Under the pieces are notes generated by a model. That model did not search any database, had not been told where the DNA came from, and was given only the letters and a program-made list of their open reading frames with translations. Shown piece after piece: positions 44,543 to 60,425 of a DNA stretch of 64,000 nt; the first letter of the stretch is position 1, and the number at the start of each line of letters is the position of its first letter. A program made the position numbers and the translations under genes. The DNA is from Bradyrhizobium sp. AZCC 2176 (GTDB lineage: Bacteria; Pseudomonadota; Alphaproteobacteria; Rhizobiales; Xanthobacteraceae): contig NZ_JAZHRX010000001.1 of NCBI RefSeq assembly GCF_036924645.1, positions 4,367,501 to 4,431,500 of the forward strand, written 5' to 3'.

Positions 44543-44547
44543 CCGAT

Positions 44548-45921
44548 ATGGCCTCCGGACTGCCCAGGATTTCGGTCGCCGAAACGCTTGCCGAAAAGAT
44601 CGTCGCACTGCGATCCGGCGCATTGCCGGCTGCCACCGCGCGCAAATGCGAGGACCTGCTGATCGACGTGATCGGACTATGCGTCACCGCGCGCAACGAG
44701 GCCTACGTCAGAAGCGCGCTCGGGGGTTGCGACGATGACGGCCTGTGTACCGCGATTGGGCATAAGCGTGCGCTGAACGCGGCAGGAGCCGCCTTCGTCA
44801 ACGGCACCGCCGCGCATGGCGAGGATTTCGACGACACGTTTGAGGGCGGCCCGGTTCATGCAGGCGCCGTGATCGTGCCGGCTGTGCTCGCTGCCTGCGA
44901 GCGGCATAACCCTGACGGCCGAATGGCGCTGGTCGGGATCGCCGTCGGCACCGAAGTGCTCTGCCGGCTGAGTCTCGTGGTGCCAAAGGCCGTCCACAAA
45001 GCCGGCTTCCATCCGACAGCGATCTTCGGCGCTATGGCCGCGGCCGCCGGTGTCGGTACAGCGCTTGGTCTCAATGCCAGGCAGATCGTTGATGCGCTCG
45101 GCATCGCCGGCAGCATGGCCGGCGGCATTATCGAATATCTCGCCGAAGGCGCCTGGACCAAACGGCTGCATGCCGGATGGGCGGCGCAGTCCGGTATCCG
45201 CGCCGCGCTGCTGGCGCGGGCAGGGTTCGTCGGCCCGCGCACGGTTTTCGAAGGCGTGCACGGATTGTTCCATGGCTTTGCACACACCACGGAGGGGGAT
45301 TACGGCGCGTTGACCAGCGATTTCGGCACCCGCTGGGTAACGGACACGCTGGCGTTCAAGCCTTATCCATGCGGGACGATGGCGCAGCCCTATATCGACT
45401 GCGCGCGCCGGCTGGCCGCGCGTGGCATCAAACCCGAGGATGTCACCGAGATCGTCTGCGAGGTGGCGGAGGGAACGGTGCACCGGCTGTGGGAGCCGCT
45501 CGCCGACAAGCAGCGTCCGCGCAACGGCTATGCCGCGAAATTCGCCGTGCCTTATCTGCTGGCCACCGGATTCGTGCATGGCGGGGTCGGGCTCGGCGCG
45601 TTCACGGAAGGCGCGATCAGCGATCCGCGTGTGCTGGCGCTTGCAGCCAAGGTGAAGTTCGTGATTGACCCGGATAATCCCTATCCGAACAATTATACTG
45701 GCCATATCCGCGCCGTGCTCAGGGACGGCAGCGTAGTTGAGGAGCGTCAACCGTACTTGCGCGGCGGCGCACAGGAGCCACTGACGCGGCAGGATGTGAT
45801 CGACAAGTTTTTGCTCAGCGCGGAGCATGGCGGTTGGAGCGCCGTGCAAAGCGACGCGGCGCTGAAATTGATGGCGGGGCTGTACAATGGCTGCATCGAT
45901 CTTTCCTCGTTACGCGGGTAG
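44548..45921 (+). CDS. MmgE/PrpD-family protein
   Basis: 457 residues from the ATG at 44548; a TTG at 44539 overlapping the previous stop is an alternative. It has the helical MmgE/PrpD fold with NGTAAHGEDFDDTF, HPTAIFGAMAAAAGVGTAL and KPYPCGTMAQPYIDCA. The family includes 2-methylcitrate dehydratase, cis-aconitate decarboxylase-type enzymes and many members of unknown substrate. The neighbours (SDR, molybdoenzyme, enoyl-CoA hydratase) are not those of the methylcitrate cycle, so a different carboxylic acid is likely. Confidence 0.82.
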   Translation: MASGLPRISVAETLAEKIVALRSGALPAATARKCEDLLIDVIGLCVTARNEAYVRSALGGCDDDGLCTAIGHKRALNAAGAAFVNGTAAHGEDFDDTFEGGPVHAGAVIVPAVLAACERHNPDGRMALVGIAVGTEVLCRLSLVVPKAVHKAGFHPTAIFGAMAAAAGVGTALGLNARQIVDALGIAGSMAGGIIEYLAEGAWTKRLHAGWAAQSGIRAALLARAGFVGPRTVFEGVHGLFHGFAHTTEGDYGALTSDFGTRWVTDTLAFKPYPCGTMAQPYIDCARRLAARGIKPEDVTEIVCEVAEGTVHRLWEPLADKQRPRNGYAAKFAVPYLLATGFVHGGVGLGAFTEGAISDPRVLALAAKVKFVIDPDNPYPNNYTGHIRAVLRDGSVVEERQPYLRGGAQEPLTRQDVIDKFLLSAEHGGWSAVQSDAALKLMAGLYNGCIDLSSLRG

Positions 45922-45927
45922 CGGCTC

Positions 45928-46680
45928 ATGACCAAGGAACTCGCCGGCAAGGTCGCTGTCGTCACCGGCGCAGGCCGCAATATCGGCCGCGCGATCGCGC
46001 TGACCCTGGCGGAGGGCGGCGCGTCCATCGTGGTCAATGCGCGCAGCAACCGCGCCGACGCGGAAGCTGTTGCACGCGAGATCGAAGCCGCAGGTGGCAA
46101 GGCGCTGGTTCAGATCGGCGACGTCGCCGACGCCATGGCGGTGCAGGCCATGGCGGATGCTGCCGTGAAGCAATTCGGCCGTATCGATATCCTGGTCAAC
46201 AACGCGGCGCTGCGCCGCGAAAAGCCTTTTGCCGAGATGGACTACGCGGCGTGGCGCGAAATCCTCGATGTGACCCTCGATGGAACGTTTCATTGCGTGA
46301 AGGCCTGTCTGCCGGCGCTACGCAAGTCAGGTGCGGGAACCATCGTCAATATCGGCGGCCTCAGTGCGCATACGGGCGCGAAGAATCGCGCGCATGTGGT
46401 GACGGCGAAGGCGGGCATCATTGGCCTGACGCGGGCGCTGGCCCACGATCTTGCCGATGACGGCATCACCGTGAACTGCGTGGTGCCCGGGCTGATCGGC
46501 ACGCCACGTCCCAAGGACAGACCGGAGCCGGCGCACCATTTGATCCATCAGACCATCACCGGCAATCGGGGCATGCCGGAAGACGTCGCCGCAACCGTGC
46601 GTTTCCTGTCCGGGCCCGCCGCGCGCTACATCAACGGCCAAGCCATCCACGCCAATGGCGGCGCCTATTTAGGCGCCTGA
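45928..46680 (+). CDS. SDR-family protein lacking the catalytic tyrosine
   Basis: 250 residues with the classical Rossmann fold: cofactor motif TGAGRNIG (13-20), NNAA at 91-94 and a Ser at 146. The YxxxK position reads VVTAK (157-161), so Lys161 is kept but the catalytic Tyr is Val157, with His156 next to it. It is either a reductase with an unusual mechanism or a non-catalytic member. The C-terminus ends in GGAYLGA, as in classical SDRs. It starts 6 bp after the MmgE/PrpD stop. Confidence 0.8.
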   Translation: MTKELAGKVAVVTGAGRNIGRAIALTLAEGGASIVVNARSNRADAEAVAREIEAAGGKALVQIGDVADAMAVQAMADAAVKQFGRIDILVNNAALRREKPFAEMDYAAWREILDVTLDGTFHCVKACLPALRKSGAGTIVNIGGLSAHTGAKNRAHVVTAKAGIIGLTRALAHDLADDGITVNCVVPGLIGTPRPKDRPEPAHHLIHQTITGNRGMPEDVAATVRFLSGPAARYINGQAIHANGGAYLGA

Positions 46681-46764
46681 TGCATGGCTAAAGGCCGTTT
46701 TTGCAGGTGCACCGCCGGACAAACCCTCTCGGCGACCGCGGCGTTTGATGTTACCTAGAAACGC

Positions 46765-48861
46765 ATGAACCAGCATGCCAAGGTCGATATCCGCCACTCC
46801 ACCTGTCCGCACGATTGTCCGTCGGCCTGCGCGCTCGACATCGAGGTAATCGACGGTCGTTCGATCGGCCGGGTCCGCGGCTCCAAGCTGCAGACCTACA
46901 CGGCGGGCGTCGTCTGCGCCAAGGTCGCGCGCTACGCCGAGCGCATTCATCACCCGGATCGGCTGCTCCATCCGATGCGCCGCACCGGGCCAAAGGGTTC
47001 GGGCCAGTTCGCGCGGATTTCCTGGAATGAGGCGCTCGATGAAATCGCCGCGCGCTTCGATCAGGCCGAGCGCGAATTCGGCGCCGAATCCGTCTGGCCG
47101 TATTACTATGCCGGCACGATGGGGCTCGTCATGCGCGACGGCATTAATCGCCTTTCGCATGTGAAGAAATATTCGCGCTTCTATTCGACCATCTGCGCCA
47201 ACATCGCGCGCGTCGGATTTGCCATCGGCACCGGCAAGATCGCCGGCGTCGATCCGCGCGAGATGGGGGCATCCGATCTCGTCGTGATCTGGGGCACCAA
47301 TCCGGTGAACACCCAGGTCAACGTGATGACGCATGCCTCGCGCGCCCGCAAGGAGCGCGGCGCGAAGATCGCGGCGATCGACGTCTACAATAACGACACC
47401 ATGAAGCAGGCAGATATCAAGATCCTGCTCCGTCCCGGCACCGACGGCGCCTTCGCTTGCGGCGTCATGCATGTGCTGTTTCGCGAGGGTTACGCGGACC
47501 GCGCCTATATGGATCGCTACACCGATTGTCCCGGCGAGTTGGAAGCGCATCTGGCAACACGTACGCCGGAATGGGCCTCGAAAATCTCGGGCGTGCCGGT
47601 CGACGAGATCGAGGCATTTGCGCGCCTCGTCGGCCAAACCAAACGTTCCTTCTTCCGGCTCGGCTACGGCTTTACCCGCAGCCGCAACGGTGCGGCGCAG
47701 ATGCACGCGGCGCTTTGTATCCCGGCCGTGACGGGCGCCTGGCAATATGAAGGCGGCGGCGCATTCTTCAACAATGCCGGCATCTGGAAGTTCAACGAAT
47801 CCATCATCGAGGGCCACGATGCGATCGACCGAACCACACGCTGGCTCGACCAGTCCAAAATCGGCCGCATCCTGACCGGCGATACCGAGGCCCTGAAGGG
47901 CGGCGGTCCCGTCAAGGCGATGCTGATCCAGAACACCAATCCGGTGACGGTCGCGCCCGAGCAGGCGCTGGTGCGTCAGGGCTTCGCGCGCGAGGATCTG
48001 TTCGTCGCGGTACATGAGCAGTTCATGACCGAGACGGCGGCCATGGCCGACATCGTACTTCCGGCCACGATGTTCATGGAGCATGACGATCTCTATTACG
48101 GCGGCGGGCACCAGCATATTTCGGTGGGCGCGAAGCTGATCGATCCGCCCGGCGAGTGCCGTTCCAATCACGAGGTGCTGCAAGGCCTCGGCCGCCGCCT
48201 CAACGCCGTGCATCCCGGATTTGAGATGACGCCGCGCGAGTTGATCGATGCGACCCTGAAGCAGAGCGGCCACGGCGATATCGAGACGCTGGAAGCCGAT
48301 CTGTGGCGCGATATCCAGCCGGATTTTCGCACCTCCCATTATCTCGACGGCTTCGCGCACGCCGACAAGAAATTTCACTTCAAGGCCGACTGGGCGAATC
48401 CGCCGTGGGGCAATCCGGGCCTTGGTCCGTGGGCCGAGATGCCCTCGCTGCCCGATCACTGGACGATCATCGAGGAGGCGGATGAGAAGCATCCGTACCG
48501 CCTGGCGACGTCGCCATCGCGCAGCTATCTCAACACCAGTTTCAACGAGACGCCGGGATCGCAGGCCCGCGAGGGCATGCCTTCGGTAATGATGCATCCG
48601 GAGGACGCCGCAGGCCTTTCGATCGCCGATGGCGACGCCGTGACGCTCGGCAACACGCGCGGTGAAACTACGCTGACCGTGAAATTGTTCGACGGCGTGC
48701 GGCGCGGCGTTCTGATCGCCGAATCCATCCATCCGAACAAGGCCCATATCGGCGGCCGCGGCATCAACATGCTGACCGGGGCCGAAACGGTCGCTCCCGT
48801 CGGCGGCGCGGCGTTCCATGACAACAAGGTGTGGGTGAAGAAGGCTGCGCCCGCCGGCTAA
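46765..48861 (+). CDS. Bis-MGD molybdenum oxidoreductase (BisC/formate-dehydrogenase superfamily)
   Basis: 698 residues. The N-terminal [4Fe-4S] site is CPHDCPSAC plus Cys51 (Cys14, 18, 22, 51), and the three catalytic domains and a C-terminal dinucleotide-binding domain follow (SYLNTSFNETPG, then MMHPEDAAGLSIADGD). The STICANIA segment offers a Cys as a possible molybdenum ligand. It has no TAT signal, so it is cytosolic. No electron-transfer subunit is next to it. Many such soluble members hydrate or dehydroxylate organic substrates, as acetylene hydratase and pyrogallol hydroxytransferase do, and the position between an SDR and an enoyl-CoA hydratase fits a catabolic role. Substrate unknown. 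Confidence 0.85.
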   Translation: MNQHAKVDIRHSTCPHDCPSACALDIEVIDGRSIGRVRGSKLQTYTAGVVCAKVARYAERIHHPDRLLHPMRRTGPKGSGQFARISWNEALDEIAARFDQAEREFGAESVWPYYYAGTMGLVMRDGINRLSHVKKYSRFYSTICANIARVGFAIGTGKIAGVDPREMGASDLVVIWGTNPVNTQVNVMTHASRARKERGAKIAAIDVYNNDTMKQADIKILLRPGTDGAFACGVMHVLFREGYADRAYMDRYTDCPGELEAHLATRTPEWASKISGVPVDEIEAFARLVGQTKRSFFRLGYGFTRSRNGAAQMHAALCIPAVTGAWQYEGGGAFFNNAGIWKFNESIIEGHDAIDRTTRWLDQSKIGRILTGDTEALKGGGPVKAMLIQNTNPVTVAPEQALVRQGFAREDLFVAVHEQFMTETAAMADIVLPATMFMEHDDLYYGGGHQHISVGAKLIDPPGECRSNHEVLQGLGRRLNAVHPGFEMTPRELIDATLKQSGHGDIETLEADLWRDIQPDFRTSHYLDGFAHADKKFHFKADWANPPWGNPGLGPWAEMPSLPDHWTIIEEADEKHPYRLATSPSRSYLNTSFNETPGSQAREGMPSVMMHPEDAAGLSIADGDAVTLGNTRGETTLTVKLFDGVRRGVLIAESIHPNKAHIGGRGINMLTGAETVAPVGGAAFHDNKVWVKKAAPAG

Positions 48862-48932
48862 TTCCCACTTGCAGTCTACCGCCATCCTGCCGCAAATGTT
48901 TTCAAAGCAACAGCAGACAAGCGAGCGGGACA

Positions 48933-49715
48933 ATGACCGACACGAGCAGCGTGATACGCGAGAAGCGTGGACAGGCGTTCTGGATTACCATCAACCGGCC
49001 GGACAAGCGCAACGCCATCAATGCCGACGTGGTCGCCGGCATCGCCCGTGGCTATCGCGAAGCGCATGACGACAAGGATGTCCGCGTCATCGTGCTGACG
49101 GGGGCGGGCGACAAGGCGTTTTGCGCCGGCGCCGACCTGCAGAACAGCGGCGCAGCGTTTGCGACGGATTTTTCCAGACCCAATGTCGACTACGCCGATC
49201 TGCTGCGGCTGTCGCAGAACGCCACCAAGCCCGCAATCGCGCGGGTGGGCGGCGTCTGCATGGCCGGCGGCATGGGGTTGTTGTGCATGACCGACATGGC
49301 GGTCGCCGCCGATCACGTGATTTTCGGTTTGCCCGAGGTGAAGGTCGGCGTGTTCCCGATGCAGGTGCTGAGCCTGCTGCAGTCGATCGCGCCAAGGCGG
49401 CTGGTCAGTGAATGGTCGCTGACCGGCGAGCCGTTCGACGCGCACATCGCTAAGGAAGCCGGCCTCCTGAACTACGTCGTGCCGTCGGCCGAGCTCGACG
49501 CCAAGGTCGAGTGGCTGGTCAGCCGCATCGTCGACAAGTCGCCGACCGCGATCCGGCGCGGCAAATACGCCATGCGGGCGATCGCCTCGATGTCGTTCGA
49601 TGAAAGCATCGCCTACACCGAAAGCCAGATTGCGTTGCTGGCGATGACGGAAGACGCCAAGGAAGGCCTCAAGGCCTTCAGTGAAAAGCGCAAGCCCGCG
49701 TGGACGGGCAAATAG
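48933..49715 (+). CDS. Enoyl-CoA hydratase/isomerase-family protein
   Basis: 260 residues from the ATG at 48933, preceded by GAGCGGGA; the frame is open to 48831 but there overlaps the molybdoenzyme. The crotonase oxyanion-hole motifs are AFCAGADL (near 64-71) and VGGVCMAGGMGLLC. In place of the two catalytic Glu positions of mitochondrial hydratase, the second segment reads LPEVKVGVFPM with one Glu, so the reaction may be isomerase- or hydrolase-like. It closes the operon and a hairpin follows. Confidence 0.85.
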   Translation: MTDTSSVIREKRGQAFWITINRPDKRNAINADVVAGIARGYREAHDDKDVRVIVLTGAGDKAFCAGADLQNSGAAFATDFSRPNVDYADLLRLSQNATKPAIARVGGVCMAGGMGLLCMTDMAVAADHVIFGLPEVKVGVFPMQVLSLLQSIAPRRLVSEWSLTGEPFDAHIAKEAGLLNYVVPSAELDAKVEWLVSRIVDKSPTAIRRGKYAMRAIASMSFDESIAYTESQIALLAMTEDAKEGLKAFSEKRKPAWTGK

Positions 49716-49733
49716 CTTGGTGGCCGTTTCTAC

Positions 49734-49755
49734 GCGAGCTCTAGAGAGAGCTCGC
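49734..49755. terminator. Perfect hairpin after the enoyl-CoA hydratase gene
   Basis: GCGAGCTC (49734-49741) and GAGCTCGC (49748-49755) are perfect 8-bp arms with a 6-base loop, 19 bp past the stop. No T-tract follows, so termination would be weak. Confidence 0.45.
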
Positions 49756-49784
49756 AAAGGTAAATCAATGGCTTACGACGCTTT

Positions 49785-50078
49785 TTAGATGTCATTTTGA
49801 GGAGGGGCTGGGGCAGCTTTTGTTCGCTCCTCACGATGCTTCTTGGAGCCCGAGATCAGCTGTTTTCGCGTGCGCTTGGCATATGTTGGCAGCTGGCGTG
49901 TCGATCGATGACGGGCCGCGGCACGTAACTCAGCATCTGTAAGATCGCTGTCGGCACCTTCCGTGAAGCCACCGTGGCGGAACGAGGCAAATGAGAGTTC
50001 AGGTCGAAGTCCGCCGGCTTCGATCCCTCGCGCGATTATGAGTCGCTCGCCGGAGGCACTCGCCTTCGGGGCCCGCCG
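49785..50078 (-). pseudogene. Tyrosine recombinase (phage integrase) C-terminal remnant
   Basis: An uninterrupted minus-strand frame without a start encodes the catalytic C-terminus of a tyrosine recombinase. It contains SFASFRHGGFTEG (the Arg-His box), then a helix, AARHRSTRQLPTYAKRT with the His/Lys-box and the nucleophile-type Tyr, then a charged tail ending KAAPAPPQNDI. The N-terminal two thirds is missing. The remnant marks past insertion of a mobile element next to the hipBA and nucleotidyltransferase genes. Confidence 0.7.
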
Positions 50079-50361
50079 TCATTTCATTCCGGCGTCGCTA
50101 TCACTGCCCCTATGCGGGTGCCTTAACCGGTCTCGCGACTGCAGTCGGTCCCGCGTCCCGCCGCGGTTCCCGCGTCGGCGCTATGCTGACGCTCCTGCCG
50201 CTGCCTCTTTCTCCTGCCTGCGCTTCGCTCCGGCGCGATCTCACTTGTCACGGGTTGGGGGAGCAAAATTGGAGGCTCGATGCGAGCTACAGCAATCATC
50301 ATGGAGCCGCCCCCGTTTGGGTGGCTCAGGTGCGTTTCGCAAAGTCAGTCGAATATGGTTC

Positions 50362-50398
50362 ATAAATAGATCGTATATATCCAAATGGGTTGTTTATA
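50362..50398. promoter_or_regulatory. Probable HipB operator, copy A
   Basis: ATAAATAG, two bases, CGTATA, then TGTTTAT 29 bases from the element's first base. The 7-bp ends ATAAATA and TGTTTAT form an imperfect inverted repeat. A second copy with identical internal spacing lies 72 bp downstream. Confidence 0.55.
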
Positions 50399-50433
50399 CC
50401 ACATGCCCATCGACACTTTCGTCGGATTGTTAT

Positions 50434-50470
50434 ATAAATAGGCCGTATAAGGTAATATGATCTGTTTATG
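50434..50470. promoter_or_regulatory. Probable HipB operator, copy B
   Basis: The same element as copy A: ATAAATAGGCCGTATA at 50434-50449 and TGTTTAT at 50463-50469, again 29 bases apart. It ends 11 bp before the hipB ATG and overlaps AT-rich -10-like sequence (TATAAG, TAATAT). Confidence 0.55.
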
Positions 50471-50481
50471 GACATCACGTA

Positions 50482-50817
50482 ATGCCGAAAACCCAACGCC
50501 CTCTCTCGCCCTATGCCGCTGATGCGGTGGCCCTTCTTGGCCAGCTCATTCGCAAGGCACGCATTGAACGCAAGCTCAAGGCCGTCGAGGTGACCGACCG
50601 GGCGGGGATCTCGCGTGGCCTCCTGCGGCGCATCGAGACGGGCGACGCCGGATGCACGATCCGCGCGGTCTTCGAGGTCGCGACTATTGTCGGCGTGCGA
50701 CTATTCGATACCGATCAAGCCGCACTATCCAAGGCGGTCGAAACCAGTCGCGAAATAATGACGCTGCTGCCGAAATCGGTTCGCAGTCCGCGCATCGAGG
50801 CCGACGATGACTTCTGA
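50482..50817 (+). CDS. hipB: HipB-like antitoxin (XRE family)
   Basis: 111 residues with an XRE helix-turn-helix at about 28-60 (KAVEVTDRAGISRGLLRRIETGD) and an acidic C-terminal tail (EADDDF). Its stop overlaps the hipA start by 11 bp, the usual translational coupling of hipBA modules. It would bind the two duplicated operator elements upstream and repress the operon together with HipA. It is longer than E. coli HipB (88 aa). Confidence 0.8.
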   Translation: MPKTQRPLSPYAADAVALLGQLIRKARIERKLKAVEVTDRAGISRGLLRRIETGDAGCTIRAVFEVATIVGVRLFDTDQAALSKAVETSREIMTLLPKSVRSPRIEADDDF

Positions 50818-52087
50818 TGCCAACTACAGCCAGGCCTTTGTCTGGGTCTGGCTTCCGGATCAAACGGAACCTGTCGTCGCCGGCCTTCTGTCGGCGAGTG
50901 GCAAGCAACTCGTATTCAACTACGGGCGAAGCTACCTTGCGCGCAAGGATGCCGTTCCCCTCTACGCACCGGAATTGCCGCTGCGAACCGGAATCTTGCC
51001 ACTCACGACGGGATTGAGCATGCCGAATTGCATTCGCGATGCGGCTCCCGACGCATGGGGCCGCCGCATCATCATCAATCGAAAATTCGGCGCGCAGGGC
51101 AAGAATGTCGATCCCGGCAACGTCGATGAGCTTACCTGTCTGCTGGAATCCGGTTCCGATCGCATCGGTGCATTGGATTTTCAGGCATCCTCCGCGGATT
51201 ACGTGGCGCGAGAAGGAGGCGAGGTCTCTCTCCTCGACCTCCTGACCGCCGCTGCGCTGGTTGAAAAGGGCGTTCCGCTCCCGGCCGAACTCGACCAGGC
51301 CCTTCTCCATGGAAGCTCGATCGGGGGCGCGCGCCCCAAGGCGATGATCACGTCGGGCAACAAGAAATTTATTGCGAAATTCTCATCGCAGAACGACCTC
51401 TACGGCGTCGTCAAAGCCGAGTACATTGCCATGCGCCTGGCCGCCGAAGTCGGCCTGACCGTTGCCCCGGTGAGCCTTGAGCGCGCAGCGGGAAAGGACG
51501 TCCTCCTTATCGAGCGCTTTGATCGCGTGAAAGTGGAAGGCGGCTGGAGCCGGAAAGCCATGGTCTCCGCCCTCACGTTGCTCGAACTCGACGAGCTCAT
51601 GGCCCGCTATGCCAGCTATGAGCAACTTGCGACCATCATTCGTCACCGATTTCAGGCGCCAAGGGAGACTCTGAGAGAACTCTTCGCGCGAATGCTGTTC
51701 AACATCCTCTGTGGAAACACCGATGATCACGCGCGCAATCACGCCGCCTTCTGGAACGGCAAGGAACTGTCCCTGACCCCAGCGTATGACCTTTGCCCGC
51801 AAAATCGAACCGGTGGAGAAGCCACCCAAGCCATGCTGATCATGGGCCAAGAACGTGCCAGCCAAATCGCACTGTGGCTGAAAGCGGCGCCTCTGTTTCT
51901 GATGAGCAATGCTGACGCAATTCTGCTTGCGACCAAACAGGTCAAGACGATCGTTCAGCGCTGGTCCGCTATATGCGATGAGGCAAAGCTCAACAAGGTA
52001 GATCGGAATTTTCTCTGGCGCCGCCAGTTCTTGAACCCGTATGCCTTCCTGGAAGCACCGGCAGCCGTAACGACGCTGATGGATTAG
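50807..52087 (+). CDS. hipA: HipA-like serine/threonine kinase toxin
   Basis: 426 residues of the HipA fold. The N-terminal subdomain (about 10-110) is followed by the Gly-rich loop GSSIGGARPKAMI, the lysine region KFIAKFS, the catalytic loop GNTDDHARNHAAFW and the metal-binding LTPAYDLCP. E. coli HipA phosphorylates glutamyl-tRNA synthetase and promotes persistence. The key kinase residues are kept here, so it should be active, but the target may differ among HipA branches. The Ser pair in the Gly-rich loop is where autophosphorylation would be expected. Confidence 0.85.
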   Translation: MTSDANYSQAFVWVWLPDQTEPVVAGLLSASGKQLVFNYGRSYLARKDAVPLYAPELPLRTGILPLTTGLSMPNCIRDAAPDAWGRRIIINRKFGAQGKNVDPGNVDELTCLLESGSDRIGALDFQASSADYVAREGGEVSLLDLLTAAALVEKGVPLPAELDQALLHGSSIGGARPKAMITSGNKKFIAKFSSQNDLYGVVKAEYIAMRLAAEVGLTVAPVSLERAAGKDVLLIERFDRVKVEGGWSRKAMVSALTLLELDELMARYASYEQLATIIRHRFQAPRETLRELFARMLFNILCGNTDDHARNHAAFWNGKELSLTPAYDLCPQNRTGGEATQAMLIMGQERASQIALWLKAAPLFLMSNADAILLATKQVKTIVQRWSAICDEAKLNKVDRNFLWRRQFLNPYAFLEAPAAVTTLMD

Positions 52088-52392
52088 AAATGCACCTCGA
52101 CCGCAGGACGCCACTTGATGTTGCAAGCGGCCTCCGGCGGCAGATACAAACTCAGCGTTCGCTTTCGAACATTAAGCGTGCGAGACCGCCTTCTTCAACT
52201 CTGCGATTCCAAGAAATTGTTAGCATATCACGTGACCCTGGAGGACGCGCTATATCCGCGAGCATTGGGATGAGATCTACGCGCTTGCCGGCTGAACAGT
52301 TTGCCATTCAACGCGACCGGCGAAGACAGAACGATGTCTGGAGGGTTTATGAGTTGAGTAGCTCGAACTTCCTACGAGCGTATTGAAGACGC
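52088..52392. other. Gene-free stretch between hipA and the phosphoesterase gene
   Basis: About 305 bp. A 98-codon open frame (52090-52386) has no ribosome site and an unnatural-looking composition. I see no convincing gene, operator or terminator here. Confidence 0.35.
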
Positions 52393-53115
52393 TCAGACCT
52401 CAATCAAGGCATAGGGTCGACCGGTGGGCTTCTCGATTGATCGGGCCACGTTGTAGACCCGCGCGCCTCCGGGCGTGTGGCCTTCATAGCGGCCCTGATG
52501 GGCATGACCGTGCACCACCGCACTCACCTTAAATCGATCGATCGTTTCGCCAAGACGTGACGAACCGAGGAACGGAAGAATCTCCAGTGGCTCGCCCTCG
52601 ACCGTATCGAGAATCGGCGCATAGTGTAGAACGACGACAGCCTGCTTGCTCGCCACCGCGCGCATGGCATTTTCGAGGCGCGTCGCTTCATTGACGGCTT
52701 CGGCGACCACACTCTTGACGACGGCCTCGCCGAACGAAGCAAGCATGCGGCGGCCGAACCCACCGATGAAGCCTTTTACCCCCACGAAGGTGACGCCGTC
52801 GATTTCGTACGACTGCCCGTTGAGCAGGTGCATCCCGGCACCCTTCAAAATGCGCTTTACGTCTTCAGTCTGCCCGGACTCGTAGTCGTGATTTCCGAGC
52901 ACGCCGACAACGGGAATAGAGCAGGCGCGCAAATCCTCCGCCAGAAGTTCCGCTTCGGACGGCTTGCCGAGGTCAGTGAGGTCGCCGCAAAGGACGAGCA
53001 CCTTGGCCTTGGTCGAGAGCTCGGCAAAGAGCTCTCGGAAGGACGACGTGCGGTCCTCCTTCACGTGGAGATCGCCAATGGCAGCGAAGGTGAGCTTGTC
53101 GGGCTTTTCGGACAT
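52393..53115 (-). CDS. Calcineurin-like metallophosphoesterase of an island gene pair
   Basis: 240 residues from the ATG at 53115; an upstream in-frame start at 53175 would overlap the preceding gene. All metal and catalytic motifs are present: GDLHV (Asp15, His17), CGDLTD near 43-48, GNHD (74-77), VLHYAP and GHAHQG. It has no signal or membrane segment, so it is cytosolic. It starts 4 bp after the stop of the nucleotidyltransferase gene. The pairing suggests it hydrolyses a nucleotide or phosphoester product made, or a modification placed, by that enzyme; that is inference. It is a different branch from the importer-linked phosphodiesterase at 31337. Confidence 0.82.
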   Translation of the reverse strand: MSEKPDKLTFAAIGDLHVKEDRTSSFRELFAELSTKAKVLVLCGDLTDLGKPSEAELLAEDLRACSIPVVGVLGNHDYESGQTEDVKRILKGAGMHLLNGQSYEIDGVTFVGVKGFIGGFGRRMLASFGEAVVKSVVAEAVNEATRLENAMRAVASKQAVVVLHYAPILDTVEGEPLEILPFLGSSRLGETIDRFKVSAVVHGHAHQGRYEGHTPGGARVYNVARSIEKPTGRPYALIEV

Positions 53116-53119
53116 CGCG

Positions 53120-53911
53120 CTACTCACTGTCCGCGTCTGTGTCGACAAAACCCCATTCCTCAACGGCCGGCTCATAATCGACCTGCGAAAACAGGCGCCC
53201 CCGACATATCTTCACGCGCGGAGGAGGAAGCTCGAACTGTGTCTTCAGGCGCGCGACCAGTTCGTCCATCAGCCAGCGCGGCACGCAATCGCGCTCGCTC
53301 GGATAGGCCCAGCGGAAGTTGAGTAGATGTGCCAGAAGCACCTCCCAATCCAACTCCATGTGGGCAAGCAGACGCCGCCAGTCGATCTGATCGTGCTGCT
53401 TGAGAATGAGATGCGCGATATCCGCGCCGTCGTAACGGTGCCGCAGTTGGACGAAGGCCTTGGACCAGATCAACTCGGTCGGGGCGATGATGCGCATCTG
53501 CGTGCCGAACACCTCGATATGCGGCGCGGATTCGAACCATTGGTCGGTCACGGGAGCCATGCCATGCCAGCACGCGAAGATCACATCGAAGAAGTGCTCG
53601 TCCTGGAAGACTTTGCCGAGCCAGCGTTCGTCCTCGATTTCGACGGTGTATCCGAGGTTCCGGAAGTGGTTGAGAACACGGGGATAATCAGTCGGCTTGC
53701 ACACGATATCGAGATCTTTGGTGGCGCGCGCCACGCCGGTATAGGCGCTGAGCGCATACGTGCCTGCCAACAGAAACGGAAGGTCGAGCTTCGCGAGCTC
53801 GCGCAAGGCCTGGGCGTAAAACACCTCGGCGCGGGCCGATGGCACGGTCGGTGTGGCGGCTGCAGCGACCGTCTCTATAGATCCAGTGACCGGTCTGATC
53901 TCCTTCGCCAT
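53120..53911 (-). CDS. Nucleotidyltransferase-fold protein of an island gene pair
   Basis: 263 residues. A polymerase-beta-type active site is intact: LLAGTYALSAYTG with Gly50-Thr51, then ATKDLDIV with Asp66 and Asp68, and a third acidic residue at Asp109 in FFDVIFA. The core resembles AbiEii/NTP_transf families, and the C-terminal half is helical (LLAHLLNFRWAYPSERDCVP). The first about 28 residues are Ala/Thr/Pro-rich and probably disordered. Family toxins of this fold add nucleotides to tRNA or proteins, but I cannot assign a substrate. The partner phosphoesterase gene follows after 4 bp. Confidence 0.78.
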   Translation of the reverse strand: MAKEIRPVTGSIETVAAAATPTVPSARAEVFYAQALRELAKLDLPFLLAGTYALSAYTGVARATKDLDIVCKPTDYPRVLNHFRNLGYTVEIEDERWLGKVFQDEHFFDVIFACWHGMAPVTDQWFESAPHIEVFGTQMRIIAPTELIWSKAFVQLRHRYDGADIAHLILKQHDQIDWRRLLAHMELDWEVLLAHLLNFRWAYPSERDCVPRWLMDELVARLKTQFELPPPRVKICRGRLFSQVDYEPAVEEWGFVDTDADSE

Positions 53912-54679
53912 GAAGGCTCACTCGAAGCTCATCGGCTTCGGCCATGAGGGTGCCTATTTGACAATCGAACAGAGCATGCAAAGTTCCGCGCGCCCTTGGT
54001 CCCACCGGCAACAATCCGGTTTGCAATGGTCGATGGCCTTCGCTTTCAGCTCGTGCCTTGGCGACTGGCGTCGGAACAGCACCTCGGAAGGCAGATCTCA
54101 GGTCTCATGATGCCTAGGGGCAAGGTCGACTGGGATTCGGGACGAGAACTTGCGTCACGTAAGCCTCGAACGCCAAGCCCTCCATGGCGCCGTCGAGGAC
54201 CATCGGCGCAGTCATGCCGGTCGCCCTGAGCGCGCCGACGAAGGTCGTTGCCTTCCAATGGCCGTGCGGGAGCGCTGCGGCCAGCGGTGGCCATGAGACC
54301 ATCGCCTTCTAACGGCAAAGACGCCACCCACAATGAACCCAAGCTTGTCCTCGTTCGAGTTTGGCCGGCCATTCTGAAACGCCTTGGAAAACAATGAGGC
54401 ACTTCTTACCCAAACAATTTCGTAAAGCATTGAATTCATTGCTTTGTCTCAATTTCCTAGGGAGCGCCAAAATGCACGATATTCCGTGATATTTTGCGAT
54501 CGGAGTTCCGATCGGGAGTGCCAGCCCGTCGATCGACTGATCTTGCAAGCGGTGGTGCGCAGGAGTCTTGCCCCTGCCTCGGAGACTGTTTGCCAGTTCG
54601 CAGGGTTTCTTAGGCGCCTGTCGACTGCAACGCGATTTGCCCATCTACCGGCGTCCGTTCGTCGCCGCACACGATCTGC
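53912..54679. other. Gene-free region with IS remnant
   Basis: About 770 bp upstream of the nucleotidyltransferase gene. It contains the IS630-type remnant (54114-54345) and otherwise short unsupported frames. Any promoter for the nucleotidyltransferase pair should lie at about 53915-54110 on the minus strand; I see no clear boxes. Confidence 0.5.
54114..54345 (-). pseudogene. IS630-family transposase fragment
   Basis: The frame at 54114-54302 encodes ALPHGHWKATTFVGALRATG and AAPMVLDG-like TAPMVLDGAMEG, then AFEAYVTQVLVP, which is the middle of an IS630-type DDE transposase. The upstream part (to about 54345) seems to continue in another frame, and the DNLGSHK-type segment that should follow is lost. 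It is decayed, and no terminal inverted repeats were identified. Confidence 0.65.
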
Positions 54680-55687
54680 TCATTCCCGCTCCATGATGTC
54701 GGCGATCGCCTTGATGCGGCTTCTGGCGTATTTCGGCAGGCCGGCGCTCAGTGAATCGCCGCTGTTGAAGGAGCTGTTGCCCATGAGCAATTGCGCGGGC
54801 ACGAGGTTTCGCAGAATGGGCGTTTTGCTGTGTTCCCTTTGCTTGCTCAGCACGTCGTTCCTGACCGCAATCAGGATGTAGACCGTCGCGATGGCGGCTT
54901 CCCGCTCGGTCGGATGCTGTTGCAGAACCGCAAGCAGCTTGCCGAACTGGATGACCTGGTTCACCCAAAAGATGCTCTGCTCGAGCCCGCTGGTGACCGT
55001 GGAGTCGAGCCCTGTCAGGCTCGGCAGCTCGGCAAGGTGCGGCTGCGTGACCAACATGATCTCACTCTGGAACTCGATGAAATCCGGAATGGGCTTTTTG
55101 CTCTCCTCGCGCAGCTTGTTGGCAAGCTGAATGCCCGCCGGAATTTTCCCTTCGAACATGTAGCGGGACTGCACGCAGATCGCCTTCGCGTCCTCGCACC
55201 AGCGGCGATTCGGCGGACGGTTGTGCGCGGCGCCCGCGTCCGTGTTTGGAACAGCATCGCCCGCCGTAATCGGCCGGTGCTTGACTGCCGGATCGATCTG
55301 CTCGAGGAACGCGACATTCGCATACCGCGACAGATCCAATGCCGCTGCCGGTCTTGGAAGTCGAAACCGCGCCTCCGCCTGGTAGACCGAGAGCTTCAGC
55401 TGCATTTGTTGCTTGAGCGTGGGCTCAACGAAGCTCGGGAAGAGCGAGAGGAAGCGCCGCTGAACCGGACGTGAGCGGGCCCAATCGTCGAAAGGAATGA
55501 GCCCGGTCGAGGAATCGGCGAGCTTGTCGTTGCGTTGGTCGGCGAAGATGATCGTGCGCGGTTTGATCTGTGCGATCGGAACGCTGGCGGCTGCGGGCAC
55601 GTCCTCCAGCTGGAATTCCTGCGCGGCCGCGCCCGTGCAAGTGGCCACGCAGGCGGCGATGAGGACAGCGGCACGGTGGAGTCTCAT
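54680..55687 (-). CDS. Exported protein of unknown function coupled to the PBP gene
   Basis: 335 residues from the ATG at 55687; a TTG at 55702 overlapping the PBP stop would add five residues. A signal peptide (RLHRAAVLIAACVATCTG, cleavage near AAAQE) shows export. The mature part is helical with a Cys pair (RRWCEDAKAIC). The family is not recognised. The start-stop contact with the penicillin-binding protein gene suggests a periplasmic role connected with peptidoglycan synthesis, but this is position-based only. Confidence 0.65.
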   Translation of the reverse strand: MRLHRAAVLIAACVATCTGAAAQEFQLEDVPAAASVPIAQIKPRTIIFADQRNDKLADSSTGLIPFDDWARSRPVQRRFLSLFPSFVEPTLKQQMQLKLSVYQAEARFRLPRPAAALDLSRYANVAFLEQIDPAVKHRPITAGDAVPNTDAGAAHNRPPNRRWCEDAKAICVQSRYMFEGKIPAGIQLANKLREESKKPIPDFIEFQSEIMLVTQPHLAELPSLTGLDSTVTSGLEQSIFWVNQVIQFGKLLAVLQQHPTEREAAIATVYILIAVRNDVLSKQREHSKTPILRNLVPAQLLMGNSSFNSGDSLSAGLPKYARSRIKAIADIMERE

Positions 55688-55698
55688 GGCGTCAATGC

Positions 55699-58542
55699 TC
55701 AATTCAGCCGCCGCCAGAAATAATCGGGATCGACTAGGAGCGGCGGTCGCGGGAGGCGATCTTCGTCATCGGGATATCCGCGCGAGGAGGGATAGTCGCG
55801 CGGACCAAGACGCCAGCTCGGGAATGGAAAGGGCGGCCGGTTATCGCCGTAAAGGCGGTTATCGTAGGACCGGAATGGCCCGTCGTCTTCGTCATTACCG
55901 CCACGATGGACGTAGCTTTCTGCACGCGAGACAATCCGAAATTGCGTATCATCGATTCTGCCCGACGGATCCCTCTTGAGGTACTCGGTGAAAGCGCGCC
56001 CGGAGCCGGCCGGTGCAGGATCGCCGGTATAGGGATCGATCGACAGAACAACGAGCTGACGCATGGCTTCGCGCGAAGGGCCGTTCAACGCCGTCTTGGG
56101 AGCGTGCAGCTCCCAGGCTGCCTGCACGATCGGCTCGAACATCGGCAGCGCCACTTTCCCTCCGGTCTGGCCGTGCCCAAGGGTGCGGCGCCCACCGTCG
56201 CCATTGTCGTAGCCGACCCAGATGGCGATTGTGACGTCATTTGTGAAGCCGACGAACCAGGCATCGGCCGAATTATCAGTGGTACCAGTCTTGCCGCCGA
56301 CATAGGGCGAGAGATGCTTCACCACGCGCGCGGTTCCGCGCGCGAGCACGCCCTGCAGCATTGATTTCAGCTGGTAAAACGACGCGCGGTCCGCGAAGCC
56401 GATCCAGGACACCGCATGCGGATCGTGCTGGTAGATTGGGCGGCCGTCCTGTTCGATCGTTTCGATCGCATGGGGCTGGGGCCGTGCGCCTTCGTTGGCA
56501 ATCGCTGCATAGAACGCCGCAAGGTCGATGAGCCGCACAGCTTGGGCGCCGAGCACGAACGGGTAGTACCGCATGCATTCTTTGTAGAGCTGCGCTTCCA
56601 TCGCGAGCTCGCAGACCCGGTCGAGGCCTCGCTCGGCGCTGTCGTCGAGACCGGTCGCGAGCAGTTGCGCGGTGGCGAGATTCCGGGAGTTTTCCAGCGC
56701 ACGCCGCAGTGTAATAGCGCCCGAAGCGCCGCCCTCGTAGTTCCTCGGAGACCAGAAGCCCCGCTGGCGCGCGTGGACCGTCGCCCCGATCGGTGCCAGC
56801 GTAATGGGTTCGTCCATCACCAGCGTGTTGGGCTGCAATCCCCTCCGAAGGGCAGCTAGGTAGGTCAGCGGCTTCAAGGTGGAGCCGGGTTGCCTCAGGC
56901 TCTGGACGACGCGGTTGAGCTGGCTTGCCGGATACGAAAAGCCGCCCGCCATCGCGAGAATGCGGCCGGTTTCGTTCTCGAGTACGAGCGCTGCTCCCTG
57001 CACGGTCGGTCGAATGCGCAGATCGGCACGCGCCGCTTGCTTACCATTGGCTTTGCGCGCCTGCACGTAGACCACGTCGTACGGCTTAAGACTGCGCCGG
57101 ATCGCTGCGCTCCAGGTATTCAGCGGCAGGATGCTTCCGTCGGTCAGACCGACGTTGATCCCACGCGTATTCTCCAGGACGACCGCCGATTCCCAGTGAA
57201 CGTCATAGAGAGGTAGCCGCGTCGTCTTCAACGCCACGAGCCAGGCCGGTTCCGTGGCCCTCCGGTCTGCCGCAATCAGACGGACAGCATCGGAAATATT
57301 CGCCTCGGATCCCTCAAATTTGTAACGACCGGTGGCGAGCTCGTACCGCGCGAGGCCCTCCTGCAATGTCGCTTCAACTATGCGCTGCAAGGCCGAGTTG
57401 ACGGTCGAGCGCACCGTGTAGGAGGAACTGGTAAGAGTATCGAGGCCCGCGACCACCTTTGCCTCGCGGGCGATGTGATCGACGAAGTGAAAGCCGAAGT
57501 CCCGGCGCGTCGGCCGGTACTCGACGAACTGCGGCAATACCGCTTGCACCGCGGCGGAGTCGATCATGGCGTCGTCCTGCATGCGGCCCAGCACGTAGGC
57601 AAGGCGCTCGCGCGCACGCTCAGGGTGGTGGTCGGGATTGAAGTAGTTTGGTCCCTTGGCGAGCCCGGCGAGCAGTGCGCCCTCAACTGCGGAGAGCGCC
57701 TTGGCTGGTTTGCCGAAATAGCTGCGCGCCGCCATCTCGATGCCCCAGGCTCCGCGACCGAGATAAATCGAGTTGAGATAGAGCTCGAGGATTTCCGCCT
57801 TGGTCAGGGCGCGCTCCATCCGAGAGGCAACGATCATTTCGCGCAGTTTTCTTTCGTAAGTGATGTCGTTGCCCACCAGCAGGTTCTTGGCGACCTGCTG
57901 CGTAATGGTCGAGCCGCCCTGCGGACGGCTCGGCTGCGTGAAGTTGCCGATGAAGGCGCGGACCAGTCCGCGCTCGTCAATGCCAGTGTGTTGGAAGAAA
58001 CGCTTGTCCTCGGCAGAGATGAATGCGTTGCGCGCCGCTTCTGGGACATCCGCAAGCTTGACCCAGATGCGGCGATTGTTCGGCGCGTAAATTTCGGCAA
58101 GGCGCTCGCTCTTGTTGTCGAGGACTACGCTGGTGCCAGGAAGCCTGAGGTGCTTAAGCTGCTCGGCGTCGGGCAGATCCTTGACCGCGCTGTTGTAGAA
58201 AGCGATGACCTGACCAAGATCGACCTGAGATCCTTCCACTTTTTCGACCTTGCAGAACTGCTTGTAGGCCACGTGGAGGTCGGCCAGATTCAGTCCTTTG
58301 AGCGCATTGATCTCGGTGCTCAACGCCTCCCTGTCATCCATGGCAGTGGCAATCAGATCGTCCAGGTTGATGTCCTCGATGTCGAAAGCCTTGCGCATGT
58401 GGGCGCAGCCGGCACTCAAAAGCTGCGCCACCTCGAAGCGATCGCGCACCGCATCGAACTCCGTCTTGACCCCATCCGGTCGGGTAGTGACCTGGCTGAA
58501 GGCAAGCGCCGTGGCGAAGATCTTGATGAGAATCGAGTCCAT
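55699..58542 (-). CDS. Class A penicillin-binding protein (bifunctional transglycosylase/transpeptidase)
   Basis: 947 residues from the ATG at 58542; a TTG at 58602 is also possible. A hydrophobic N-terminal anchor or signal (ILIKIFATALAFSQV) precedes a helical segment of about 110 residues not seen in standard PBP1A. The GT51 domain has SAEDKRFFQHTGID with the catalytic Glu near 178 and RPQGGSTITQQVAKNLL. The transpeptidase domain has RQPGSTLKPL (active Ser and Lys), ENSRN and GGKTGTT. A Pro/Asp/Arg-rich tail of about 70 residues follows. All catalytic motifs are intact, so it should polymerise and cross-link peptidoglycan in the periplasm. Confidence 0.88.
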   Translation of the reverse strand: MDSILIKIFATALAFSQVTTRPDGVKTEFDAVRDRFEVAQLLSAGCAHMRKAFDIEDINLDDLIATAMDDREALSTEINALKGLNLADLHVAYKQFCKVEKVEGSQVDLGQVIAFYNSAVKDLPDAEQLKHLRLPGTSVVLDNKSERLAEIYAPNNRRIWVKLADVPEAARNAFISAEDKRFFQHTGIDERGLVRAFIGNFTQPSRPQGGSTITQQVAKNLLVGNDITYERKLREMIVASRMERALTKAEILELYLNSIYLGRGAWGIEMAARSYFGKPAKALSAVEGALLAGLAKGPNYFNPDHHPERARERLAYVLGRMQDDAMIDSAAVQAVLPQFVEYRPTRRDFGFHFVDHIAREAKVVAGLDTLTSSSYTVRSTVNSALQRIVEATLQEGLARYELATGRYKFEGSEANISDAVRLIAADRRATEPAWLVALKTTRLPLYDVHWESAVVLENTRGINVGLTDGSILPLNTWSAAIRRSLKPYDVVYVQARKANGKQAARADLRIRPTVQGAALVLENETGRILAMAGGFSYPASQLNRVVQSLRQPGSTLKPLTYLAALRRGLQPNTLVMDEPITLAPIGATVHARQRGFWSPRNYEGGASGAITLRRALENSRNLATAQLLATGLDDSAERGLDRVCELAMEAQLYKECMRYYPFVLGAQAVRLIDLAAFYAAIANEGARPQPHAIETIEQDGRPIYQHDPHAVSWIGFADRASFYQLKSMLQGVLARGTARVVKHLSPYVGGKTGTTDNSADAWFVGFTNDVTIAIWVGYDNGDGGRRTLGHGQTGGKVALPMFEPIVQAAWELHAPKTALNGPSREAMRQLVVLSIDPYTGDPAPAGSGRAFTEYLKRDPSGRIDDTQFRIVSRAESYVHRGGNDEDDGPFRSYDNRLYGDNRPPFPFPSWRLGPRDYPSSRGYPDDEDRLPRPPLLVDPDYFWRRLN

Positions 58543-58602
58543 GACCTGCCGACGGTCGAAAGCCGCCTCCGTAAGGTCCTTTTGTAGAACAATAGTAAAC
58601 AA

Positions 58603-59270
58603 GGCTGTTTTGAGGAAAAAGTTCCCGCTAGCTCGCTTTGGCCGCGGTGAGATGGGGAAGACAGTGGGGACCTCCGGCTCCGCCGATGCACGGCGATGGG
58701 CATGTCGGGATTAGACCTTCGAGCTACCAAAAACGCAGTTGTCCCAGGCGCTGGGTCCCTGGATTCAGGTGGGCTGCACACACCGCTCGTTCCCTCGATT
58801 CAGGAAATTCGACCGGTTGCGGCGCCGACGTAACTCGGTCAACGAGCTAAGGTGACAGTGTGATTGGCGGCAAGCCGGCGCAGATGATGAGGCTGGCCGA
58901 TGCAGCGCCGGTGCGGTTTACAAGTGGATAGCCCAGCTGGGCCCCAGGTGTCAGCGATGTTGGTATTCTTGTTGGTATTTCGATTTCCAGAGGCCTGCGA
59001 AAAGCACTGGGAATAGGCGCCCTTATGCTCTTGCGACGCCGCTGGTCACCAATTGCCCCGTGAGCGTTCGGGGCGGAGGACCCTCGACAATATCCGGGCG
59101 GCCCAAGCCTTTGCGGCCGATTACGTCGCTAACGAAGAGATCATCTACGGCTGAGCGCAACCGTGCGATGGCGCGCCCCGCCGCTTCTCCGGCTCTTCAG
59201 CACCGCTCCGGGCCGCGGAACCAACGCTGCGGCCAGTGCGTTTTAGAAGCACAGCATTGGCAGCGCACTC
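58603..59270. other. Gene-free region upstream of the PBP gene
   Basis: About 670 bp. A short open tail ending at about 59155 (RTLDNIRAAQAFAADYVANE) looks like the C-terminus of a lost gene, but no start or family is visible. No RNA gene or strong hairpin is evident. Confidence 0.4.
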
Positions 59271-59837
59271 ATGAATGCCCTTTTTCCGGTCGTGCTTGCC
59301 GCGGCGCTCCTCAGTGCCGCCATCGCCACGATGCCTGCGGATGCTGCTCCTCGAAAAAAGAAGGCCGCGGTCTCCCCTGCAGCTAGCGTCGCTCAGCCAC
59401 CCACGGACAGATTTTTGGCCTGCGACGTCCGGGTGCGAGACTATCTTCGCGAAGGCGGAGCCGCGATACGGGTCACCAAGATCGAAGTGGATGATGCCCG
59501 ACTGCAGTTGAACATTCATCATGAGTACGGAGAGGCGGGAAAGTCGTCTCGAAAATACCTGCGCGGGGATAGTGAAGAAGAAATGCGCAAAAATCTGCGC
59601 GGAATATTGGATGAGTTTGCGGCGGCTGCGAAGGCCGCAGCGGCTGGTCGCGCTTGGTATGTGATCGCTGCTCGCAAGGTCATGCCGGACCTCCGCGACG
59701 GTTCGGGCGAGAATACGAGTCCGTGGACAGCCATTGTCCTCGCGGATTTCGAGGGAAAATGCAGACCCATCACGTTCTATCAGTCTGTCGATCGGAACAA
59801 GCTCAATCCTGAACTGAGCAAGAAATTGGATGAGTGA
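59271..59837 (+). CDS. Small exported protein of unknown function
   Basis: 188 residues with a signal peptide (ALFPVVLAAALLSAAIA, cleavage near PADAAP). A short basic Lys/Pro linker (APRKKKAAV) follows, then a globular domain with one Cys in FLACDVRVRDYL and another in GKCRPITFY, possibly a disulfide. The family is not recognised. It stands alone between gene-free stretches. Confidence 0.6.
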   Translation: MNALFPVVLAAALLSAAIATMPADAAPRKKKAAVSPAASVAQPPTDRFLACDVRVRDYLREGGAAIRVTKIEVDDARLQLNIHHEYGEAGKSSRKYLRGDSEEEMRKNLRGILDEFAAAAKAAAAGRAWYVIAARKVMPDLRDGSGENTSPWTAIVLADFEGKCRPITFYQSVDRNKLNPELSKKLDE

Positions 59838-59996
59838 AGTTTTGCGCTTGAAGTGATTTAACGCGTGAAGACAGATCGCCACTGAGGTCGAGATCAGACA
59901 CAGCCCCGCAGTGGAGATGCGGCTCGATCATCTAACCCTTGCCGCCAACCGGCGAGCCGGCCAGCCAGGATCAATCATCGACCTAGCTGACGACCG

Positions 59997-60425
59997 CTAC
60001 CCTGCATTAGCCTTCAGTCCGGCGGCTTCGATGCCTGCGACGGCGCAGGCCTCGTCATTGTCCGATGTGTCGCCGCTGACACCGACGGCGCCGAGCAGGC
60101 CGCCGCCACCCTGGATCAGTACGCCGCCGGGCACCGGCACCAGACGTCCCTGCGCCAGCGCATTGACCGCGCTGACAAAATAGGCCTGTTCCTGGGCGCG
60201 CTGGAACAGCGCCCGCGATCCCATGCCCATCGCAAGCGCGCCATAGGCCTTGCCGTGCGCGATTTCGGCCCGCATCAGGCTGGTGCCATCCTGCGCCGCC
60301 GTGACCTTCACACAGCCGCGGGCATCCAGAATGGTGATGACCAGCGGCTTCAGTTTCTTCTCGACGCCCTTGGCAAGGGCGGCATCGAGGATCTTGCGGG
60401 CGACGTCGAGGGTGAGTTCGGCCAT
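59997..60425 (-). CDS. GlcG/HbpS-family (DUF336) protein
   Basis: 142 residues, the full length of the GlcG/HbpS family: LDVARKILDAAL at the start, then VITILDARGCVKV, and GGLLGAVGVSG (with GGVLIQGGG) near the C-terminus. AAAGGA before the ATG supports the start. It follows the large FAD/iron-sulfur oxidase gene by 28 bp in the same direction. In E. coli glcG lies in the glycolate oxidase operon, so the pairing repeats a known association. The biochemical role of GlcG is not established. Confidence 0.85.
   Translation of the reverse strand: MAELTLDVARKILDAALAKGVEKKLKPLVITILDARGCVKVTAAQDGTSLMRAEIAHGKAYGALAMGMGSRALFQRAQEQAYFVSAVNALAQGRLVPVPGGVLIQGGGGLLGAVGVSGDTSDNDEACAVAGIEAAGLKANAG

Follow-up and report, generated by a model that had tools for sequence, protein, structure and literature searches.

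What might a nucleotidyltransferase (NTase) and a metallophosphoesterase (MPE) encoded 4 bp apart do together in Bradyrhizobium sp. AZCC 2176? The two genes lie in a stretch of 64,000 nucleotides (here the window; positions 4,367,501 to 4,431,500 of contig NZ_JAZHRX010000001.1, assembly GCF_036924645.1), part of a 7.15 Mb single-contig genome. A first-pass annotation of the window had offered them as a candidate toxin-antitoxin or anti-phage system in which one enzyme adds a nucleotide and the other removes it. We find a real, conserved gene pair, described in no paper that our literature searches returned, which is most likely a stress-response module.

Two intact enzymes inherited as one unit

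53120-53911, minus strand: NTase gene, 263 amino acids (Pfam NTP_transf_5, PF14907, E 1.9e-10, above cut-off)
52393-53115, minus strand: MPE gene, calcineurin-like metallophosphoesterase, 240 amino acids (Pfam Metallophos, PF00149, E 4.6e-15)
NTase motifs, by residue: G50-T51, T64-K-D66-L-D68, D109, K151, R157-x-R159-x-D161-G-x-D164 and CRGR at 236-239

The NTase gene comes first and the MPE gene follows downstream; the gap is 4 bp, as first described, and falls at 53116-53119. For the MPE we took the start at 53115, which its closest relatives, also of 240 amino acids, share; a longer, mechanically called open reading frame (ORF) starts at 53175. No NCBIfam model reached its cut-off for either protein. 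The earlier assertion that the NTase catalytic site is intact and the MPE metal motifs complete is borne out by alignment: NTase residues G50, D66, D68, and D109 are identical in 108 of 108 sequences and T64, K65, and K151 in 107, with threonine at position 51 of the G-T motif in 98, while MPE residues D15, H17, D45, H76, H164, H202, and H204 are invariant in 107 of 107 sequences and N75 is kept in 106. Together these MPE residues form what we take to be a complete binuclear metal site. Mean column identity among the aligned rows is 69% for the NTase family and 76% for the MPE family.

Searches returned 1477 relatives of the NTase and, among 8000 scored, 7855 of the MPE. When the best 80 of the 278 NTase relatives in a scan of species genomes were taken as loci, a close MPE relative stood directly after the NTase in 79. 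The remaining locus, in Microvirga lenta (L032, 10001-10759), has an intact NTase with the promoter element described below and no MPE in the 20.8 kb fetched; it is a ready-made case for asking whether an unpaired NTase does harm. The two genes share a strand in all 104 two-gene loci counted (a Streptomyces locus and one in genome G775, discussed below, are left out). The pairing seen in the window also recurs by genome: in a sample of the genus, the NTase is present in 13 of 146 genomes (window genome included) and the MPE, at E <= 1e-40, in 14, the fourteenth and only unpaired one being a fragment, and all 18 NTase copies adjoin an MPE by coordinates. In a sample of another family (that of genome G659), each gene is found in 15 of 199 genomes, the same ones, and adjacent. 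More widely, the NTase occurs in 5 of 289 genomes of a class sample and the MPE in 13 of 398 of a phylum sample (at 1e-25). Among plasmids, the NTase was found in 127 records and a Streptomyces MPE query matched 107, with similar lists of genera, and both genes are present as open frames on pSymB of Sinorhizobium meliloti.

Four genomes of the genus sample carry several copies (3, 2, 2, and 2), which suggests mobility. In many pairs of Bradyrhizobium loci, the similar stretch begins about 77 bp ahead of the NTase and ends shortly after the MPE stop codon, some 1.6 kb that hold little besides the promoter element and the two genes. Some pairs share longer DNA (L006-L009, 4.1 kb; L113-L114, 3.4 kb; L115-L116, 5.5 kb), L112-L120 has further long similar pieces, and several other locus pairs have additional flanking pieces in common. 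We rejected a defined mobile element: some locus pairs are similar over 3-5 kb, and the outer similarity fades gradually. Locus edges read by eye showed no obvious terminal inverted repeats, no repeat search having been made there. In Microvirga, 15 flanking families each occur in at least 18 of 31 loci, and no flanking family apart from the pair itself spans more than three of the 27 taxon labels. The pair thus occupies different places in different genera and is a stable locus in at least one. The evidence supports two intact enzymes that form one co-inherited unit in varied contexts.

An EcfG-type promoter element upstream of the pair

53962-53987, minus strand: EcfG/RpoE2-type promoter element GGAAC-N17-ATTG, first G 76 bp from the NTase start

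On reading the Bradyrhizobium locus alignments, we noticed a conserved GGAAC at the left edge of the similar stretch. The published motif of EcfG, the sigma factor of the alphaproteobacterial general stress response, is GGAAC-N16-CGTT (PMC3892343, PMC7083833) or GGAAC-N17-20-GTT (PMC6599016). The form GGAAC-N17-19-TT is found upstream in 82 of 88 loci, compared with 5.7% of random windows of the same DNA, and a slightly different relaxed pattern in 99 of 106 (the misses are L021, L035, L059, L067, L080, L084, and L112). The loci counted are not independent of one another: 31 come from Microvirga, some genomes contribute more than one copy, and at least two are represented twice (L008/L119, L083/L146). 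We also counted by taxon, using 29 labels and scoring a label when at least half its loci match, against 1379 other ORFs predicted in the same flanks by a simple in-house ORF caller. The relaxed form is present in 24 of the 29 labels (11.6% of the other ORFs), the N17-20-GTT form in 19 (9.6%), and the N16-CGTT form in 6 (3.5%). A scan for sigma-70 promoters found no promoter-like site.

The window genome also appears to hold the regulatory circuit. A NepR profile match lies above cut-off, sigma-factor-like and PhyR-like ORFs (identified by reading rather than by family search) stand beside nepR, and GGAAC-N17-ATT occurs 75 bp upstream of the nepR ORF. Because nepR there has the same variant upstream, the ATT form of the -10 element is plausible in this genome. 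The pair thus has in common with the EcfG/RpoE2 (PhyR-NepR) regulon both its promoter element and a genome that encodes NepR; the main texts searched do not name the pair. Regulation of the operon by stress is strongly indicated by this promoter sequence.

Predicted chemistry and a proposed mechanism

Single-chain AlphaFold2 models of the NTase (pLDDT 86.9) and MPE (pLDDT 87.9) give some guide to what the enzymes may do. The fold nearest to the NTase model is MenT1, with the antibiotic nucleotidyltransferases ANT(2'') and LnuA among the next structural neighbors; MenT1 lies about 4.5 Z units above these two, though the Foldseek E-values are near each other (4.8e-7 and 7.2e-7). The NTase also resembles MenT1 of the MenAT1 system, and the AbiEii-MenT group in general, in its G-T...T-x-D-x-D motif, lysine, and downstream aspartate. 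The MenT catalytic residues are reported to be T39, D41, K137, and D152 (PMC10435456), for which T64, D66, K151, and D164 of the NTase are plausible counterparts by motif order. There are differences as well. The partner here is a PF00149 metallophosphoesterase rather than MenA or AbiEi, the AbiEii/DUF1814 Pfam profile scores 18 bits against a cut-off of 22.5 while PF14907 fits instead, and the pair carries an EcfG-type promoter element. We do not file the pair under MenAT or AbiE because the profile cut-off and the antitoxin type both fail, though it may work similarly. The NTase also has a conserved C-terminal stretch of about 60 amino acids beyond the MenT1 alignment, which ends at residue 202; this part (residues 203-263, window 53123-53305) contains the Cys-Arg-Gly-Arg motif. 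The MPE model shares its fold and complete binuclear metal site with Rv0805, GpdQ, MPPED2, Mre11, and TT1561, although the top-ranking chains of those names are no more than about 16-22% identical to it, and its NCBIfam matches are all below cut-off. We rejected identification of the MPE as Mre11 or a purple acid phosphatase, the rows showing fold only, and of the NTase as a CD-NTase of a CBASS system, for which the sole trace was a distant Foldseek row (CdnE). The idea of make-and-break chemistry, put forward in the first-pass annotation, fits both predicted folds.

We see about an even chance that the general stress response of alphaproteobacteria uses the pair as an effector module, a write/erase couple. 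Stress would free EcfG from its anti-sigma factor NepR, and the freed EcfG would transcribe the operon from the GGAAC-N17-18-(G/A)TT promoter suggested by the conserved sequence. The MenT/AbiEii-like NTase, judging by its fold and motifs, would transfer a nucleoside monophosphate (NMP) from a nucleoside triphosphate onto a hydroxyl of a cellular target, for which the first candidate may be the 3' end of a tRNA or another RNA. The MPE, with a metal site of the phosphodiesterase type, would cut the NMP phosphodiester and so make the mark removable. For a modification that needs limits or quick reversal, a single transcript encoding both writer and eraser would be apt. The models point with moderate strength to the chemistry of adding and removing NMP, and the analogy with MenT1 hints weakly at tRNA as the target. 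A bolder version, which we advance tentatively, is a reversible nucleotidylation arm of the general stress response, in which a MenT-like NTase that was once a toxin caps tRNA or other RNA under stress and, as the cell recovers, a dedicated phosphodiesterase takes the cap off, the compact unit of promoter and two genes spreading between genomes and plugging into the host's EcfG network.

Several points weigh against a stress-response role. First, the fit to the published promoter motifs is incomplete: the -10 element in the window is ATT rather than GTT, the N17-20-GTT form is present in 19 of 29 labels and in 2 of 11 Bradyrhizobium loci, and the N16-CGTT form is present in 6 of 29 labels alone. 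A GGAAC -35 element is also used by other extracytoplasmic function sigma factors, and there is some doubt which sigma factor acts because that element is not exclusive to EcfG. Second, we found no expression data for the pair: the main texts of the stress-regulon papers searched contain neither 'phosphoesterase' nor 'nucleotidyltransferase' (one search covered the first term only), and three candidate S. meliloti gene tags were not found in PMC3616915. Third, the pair is patchy in groups expected to have EcfG. Fourth, likeness of fold does not give the substrate, since ANT(2'') and LnuA modify antibiotics, and folds like that of the MPE also fit phosphomonoesters and cyclic nucleotides. Fifth, the flanking genes are mixed and do not alone indicate stress. 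From 161 flank proteins picked from 27 varied loci, 101 (from 25 loci) were scanned, and the commonest family was alpha-amylase, with 5 members. An NCBIfam scan of ten large neighbors gave GlgX, TreY, and a trehalose-enzyme-like protein (3 of 10), the other seven being methionine synthase, PurL, malate synthase, a chemotaxis receptor, a GGDEF protein, a glycosyltransferase, and one unmatched.

Alternative explanations

The pair could belong to a small-molecule pathway. The NTase would then switch a metabolite on or off, as ANT(2'') and LnuA do, or synthesize a nucleotide compound for the MPE to hydrolyze. The place of ANT(2'') and LnuA among the next structural neighbors would fit, as would the small-molecule phosphodiesterases GpdQ and Rv0805 among the kin of the MPE. 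We consider this unlikely, given the higher Z of MenT1 (close Foldseek E-values notwithstanding) and the finding that no other flanking family recurs across more than three of 27 taxon labels. The NTase here differs from ANT(2'')-Ia and LnuA in being nearly always paired with an MPE.

On the toxin-antitoxin reading, the NTase would, like MenT, modify tRNA and so stop translation, and the MPE would undo the damage as an enzymatic antitoxin. This reading draws on the nearness of the fold to MenT1, the plausible counterparts (by motif order) of the MenT catalytic residues, the near-obligate pairing, the varied contexts and multiple copies, and the hipBA genes that adjoin the pair in the window. 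It too seems improbable. The M. lenta locus has an NTase without an MPE, and the sole unpaired MPE of the genus sample is a fragment; the NTase comes first in the gene order; there is no MenA or AbiEi partner, and an MPE is no known antitoxin type; the AbiEii score is below cut-off; and both the EcfG-type promoter element and the common surroundings throughout Microvirga speak against it.

Alternatively, the MPE could act on its partner: phosphorylation of Thr64 would turn the NTase off and the MPE would switch it back on. T64, conserved in 107 of 108 sequences, lies two residues before the first catalytic aspartate, the place of the MenT phosphosite, and T39 of MenT1 and S78 of MenT3 are inactivating phosphosites (PMC11375011). 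According to the same paper, MenT1 T39A retains reduced activity, so T64 may be kept for catalysis. The residues correspond by motif order rather than by a checked superposition, and neither a kinase nor a MenA-like gene accompanies the NTase; we think this explanation very unlikely.

Tests for a role in defense gave little to support one. The MPE matches the PADLOC candidate PDC-S10 (E 8.5e-16), a name that we found in no paper, and the viral protein family phrog_1649 (E 7.7e-16), and the NTase weakly matches PADLOC AbiEii (5.9e-6). Among the 101 flank proteins, PADLOC at 1e-10 matched six models (GlgB 5, mad3 2, mad2 1, two RT-Protease_XI models 1 each, and AriA 1), no clear defense signal, with no matched control. 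No NTase relative was found in phage records or in viral contigs, where none of 40 pattern matches was confirmed. The HEPN-MNT (MntA-HepT) arrangement is absent, the adjacent gene being PF00149 and none of the 25 most frequent flank families (of 148) being HEPN, and the MPE scores 18.5 bits against a cut-off of 420 for NF053862, the anti-phage phosphoesterase DS-9. The anti-phage module proposed in the first-pass annotation, for which these family matches, the patchy distribution, and the varied contexts speak, is thus highly improbable in view of the stress promoter element, the common Microvirga flanks, the high conservation of both proteins, flank matches led by GlgB, and the lack of NTase relatives among the phage records and viral contigs.

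Genomic surroundings and divergent relatives

49712-59997, no strand: genomic island holding the pair, about 10.3 kb, from comparison with six relatives
50482-52087, plus strand: hipB-hipA (Pfam), neighboring toxin-antitoxin genes downstream of the pair and outside the unit
53996-54226, plus strand: DUF3363 C-terminal remnant (end of the profile matched), upstream of the NTase promoter element
54129-54296, no strand: IS630 transposase remnant (DNA match only), upstream of the pair

The DNA just before the island, with an enoyl-CoA hydratase gene, is matched in 40 of 40 genus genomes, the window genome included. Six of these were compared over 14.5 kb: the site is empty in two (about 49710 joins about 60000, with 5 or 11 bases between), holds other inserts of 0.7, 0.9, and 4.4 kb in three, and has no right-hand match within the stretch fetched in one; in L179 and L182, among the six, the left-hand match extends to about 50015. 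The pair thus lies in an insertion of about 10.3 kb at a variable site. The longest exact word common to the island edges (200 bases each) is 9 bases, and there is no tRNA in 44000-60000. The setting originally described holds in part. The hipBA genes are confirmed and the IS630 remnant is supported by DNA identity of 71-73%, over about 54129-54296, to annotated IS630 transposases in four of eight listed plasmid rows (of 137 matching records), while neither Pfam nor PHROG gave a match for the supposed integrase remnant (ORF 49963-50460), which is therefore unconfirmed. The DUF3363 remnant at 53996-54226, absent from the first-pass annotation and from a family that we take to be relaxase-associated, suggests decayed conjugative DNA beside the pair.

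More distant loci show other arrangements. In a Streptomyces plasmid locus (L125, 6782-8517), a BON-domain gene stands between the NTase and MPE genes; the MPE there is about 40% identical to that of the window, and the NTase is divergent, without the Thr, Lys, and second Asp motifs. In Nonomuraea, no MPE lies within 6 kb of the NTase. For these reasons we rejected the actinomycete version as the same system, and its loci are not counted because pairing is not strict there. In G775, a genome from a different class of the phylum, the two genes lie side by side in divergent orientation (L141, 9446-11606), and the NTase ORF extends about 150 amino acids beyond the matched part. A second Bradyrhizobium subtype (L112-L116, L120, L122), has an NTase about 47-51% identical, and one genome carries nearly identical copies of it at several sites; in the NTases displayed, G-G replaces G-T, and the L112 copy has an altered MPE end. 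Two records with unexpected titles, L017 (Mycobacterium sp. KBS0706) and L021 (uncultured cyanobacterium), carry close relatives of the alphaproteobacterial copies, and the title of L017 may be wrong because it has flanking families in common with Inquilinus.

Implications

A MenT-like NTase beside another enzyme need not be part of a toxin-antitoxin or phage defense system, and this pair would advise caution in reading such neighbors. With writer and eraser in one operon under one promoter, and in tractable rhizobia such as Sinorhizobium meliloti, the proposed stress-response role is directly testable. Many target genes of the EcfG stress response have no known function; if our reading is true, the pair would link toxin-like nucleotidyltransferases with the EcfG general stress response.
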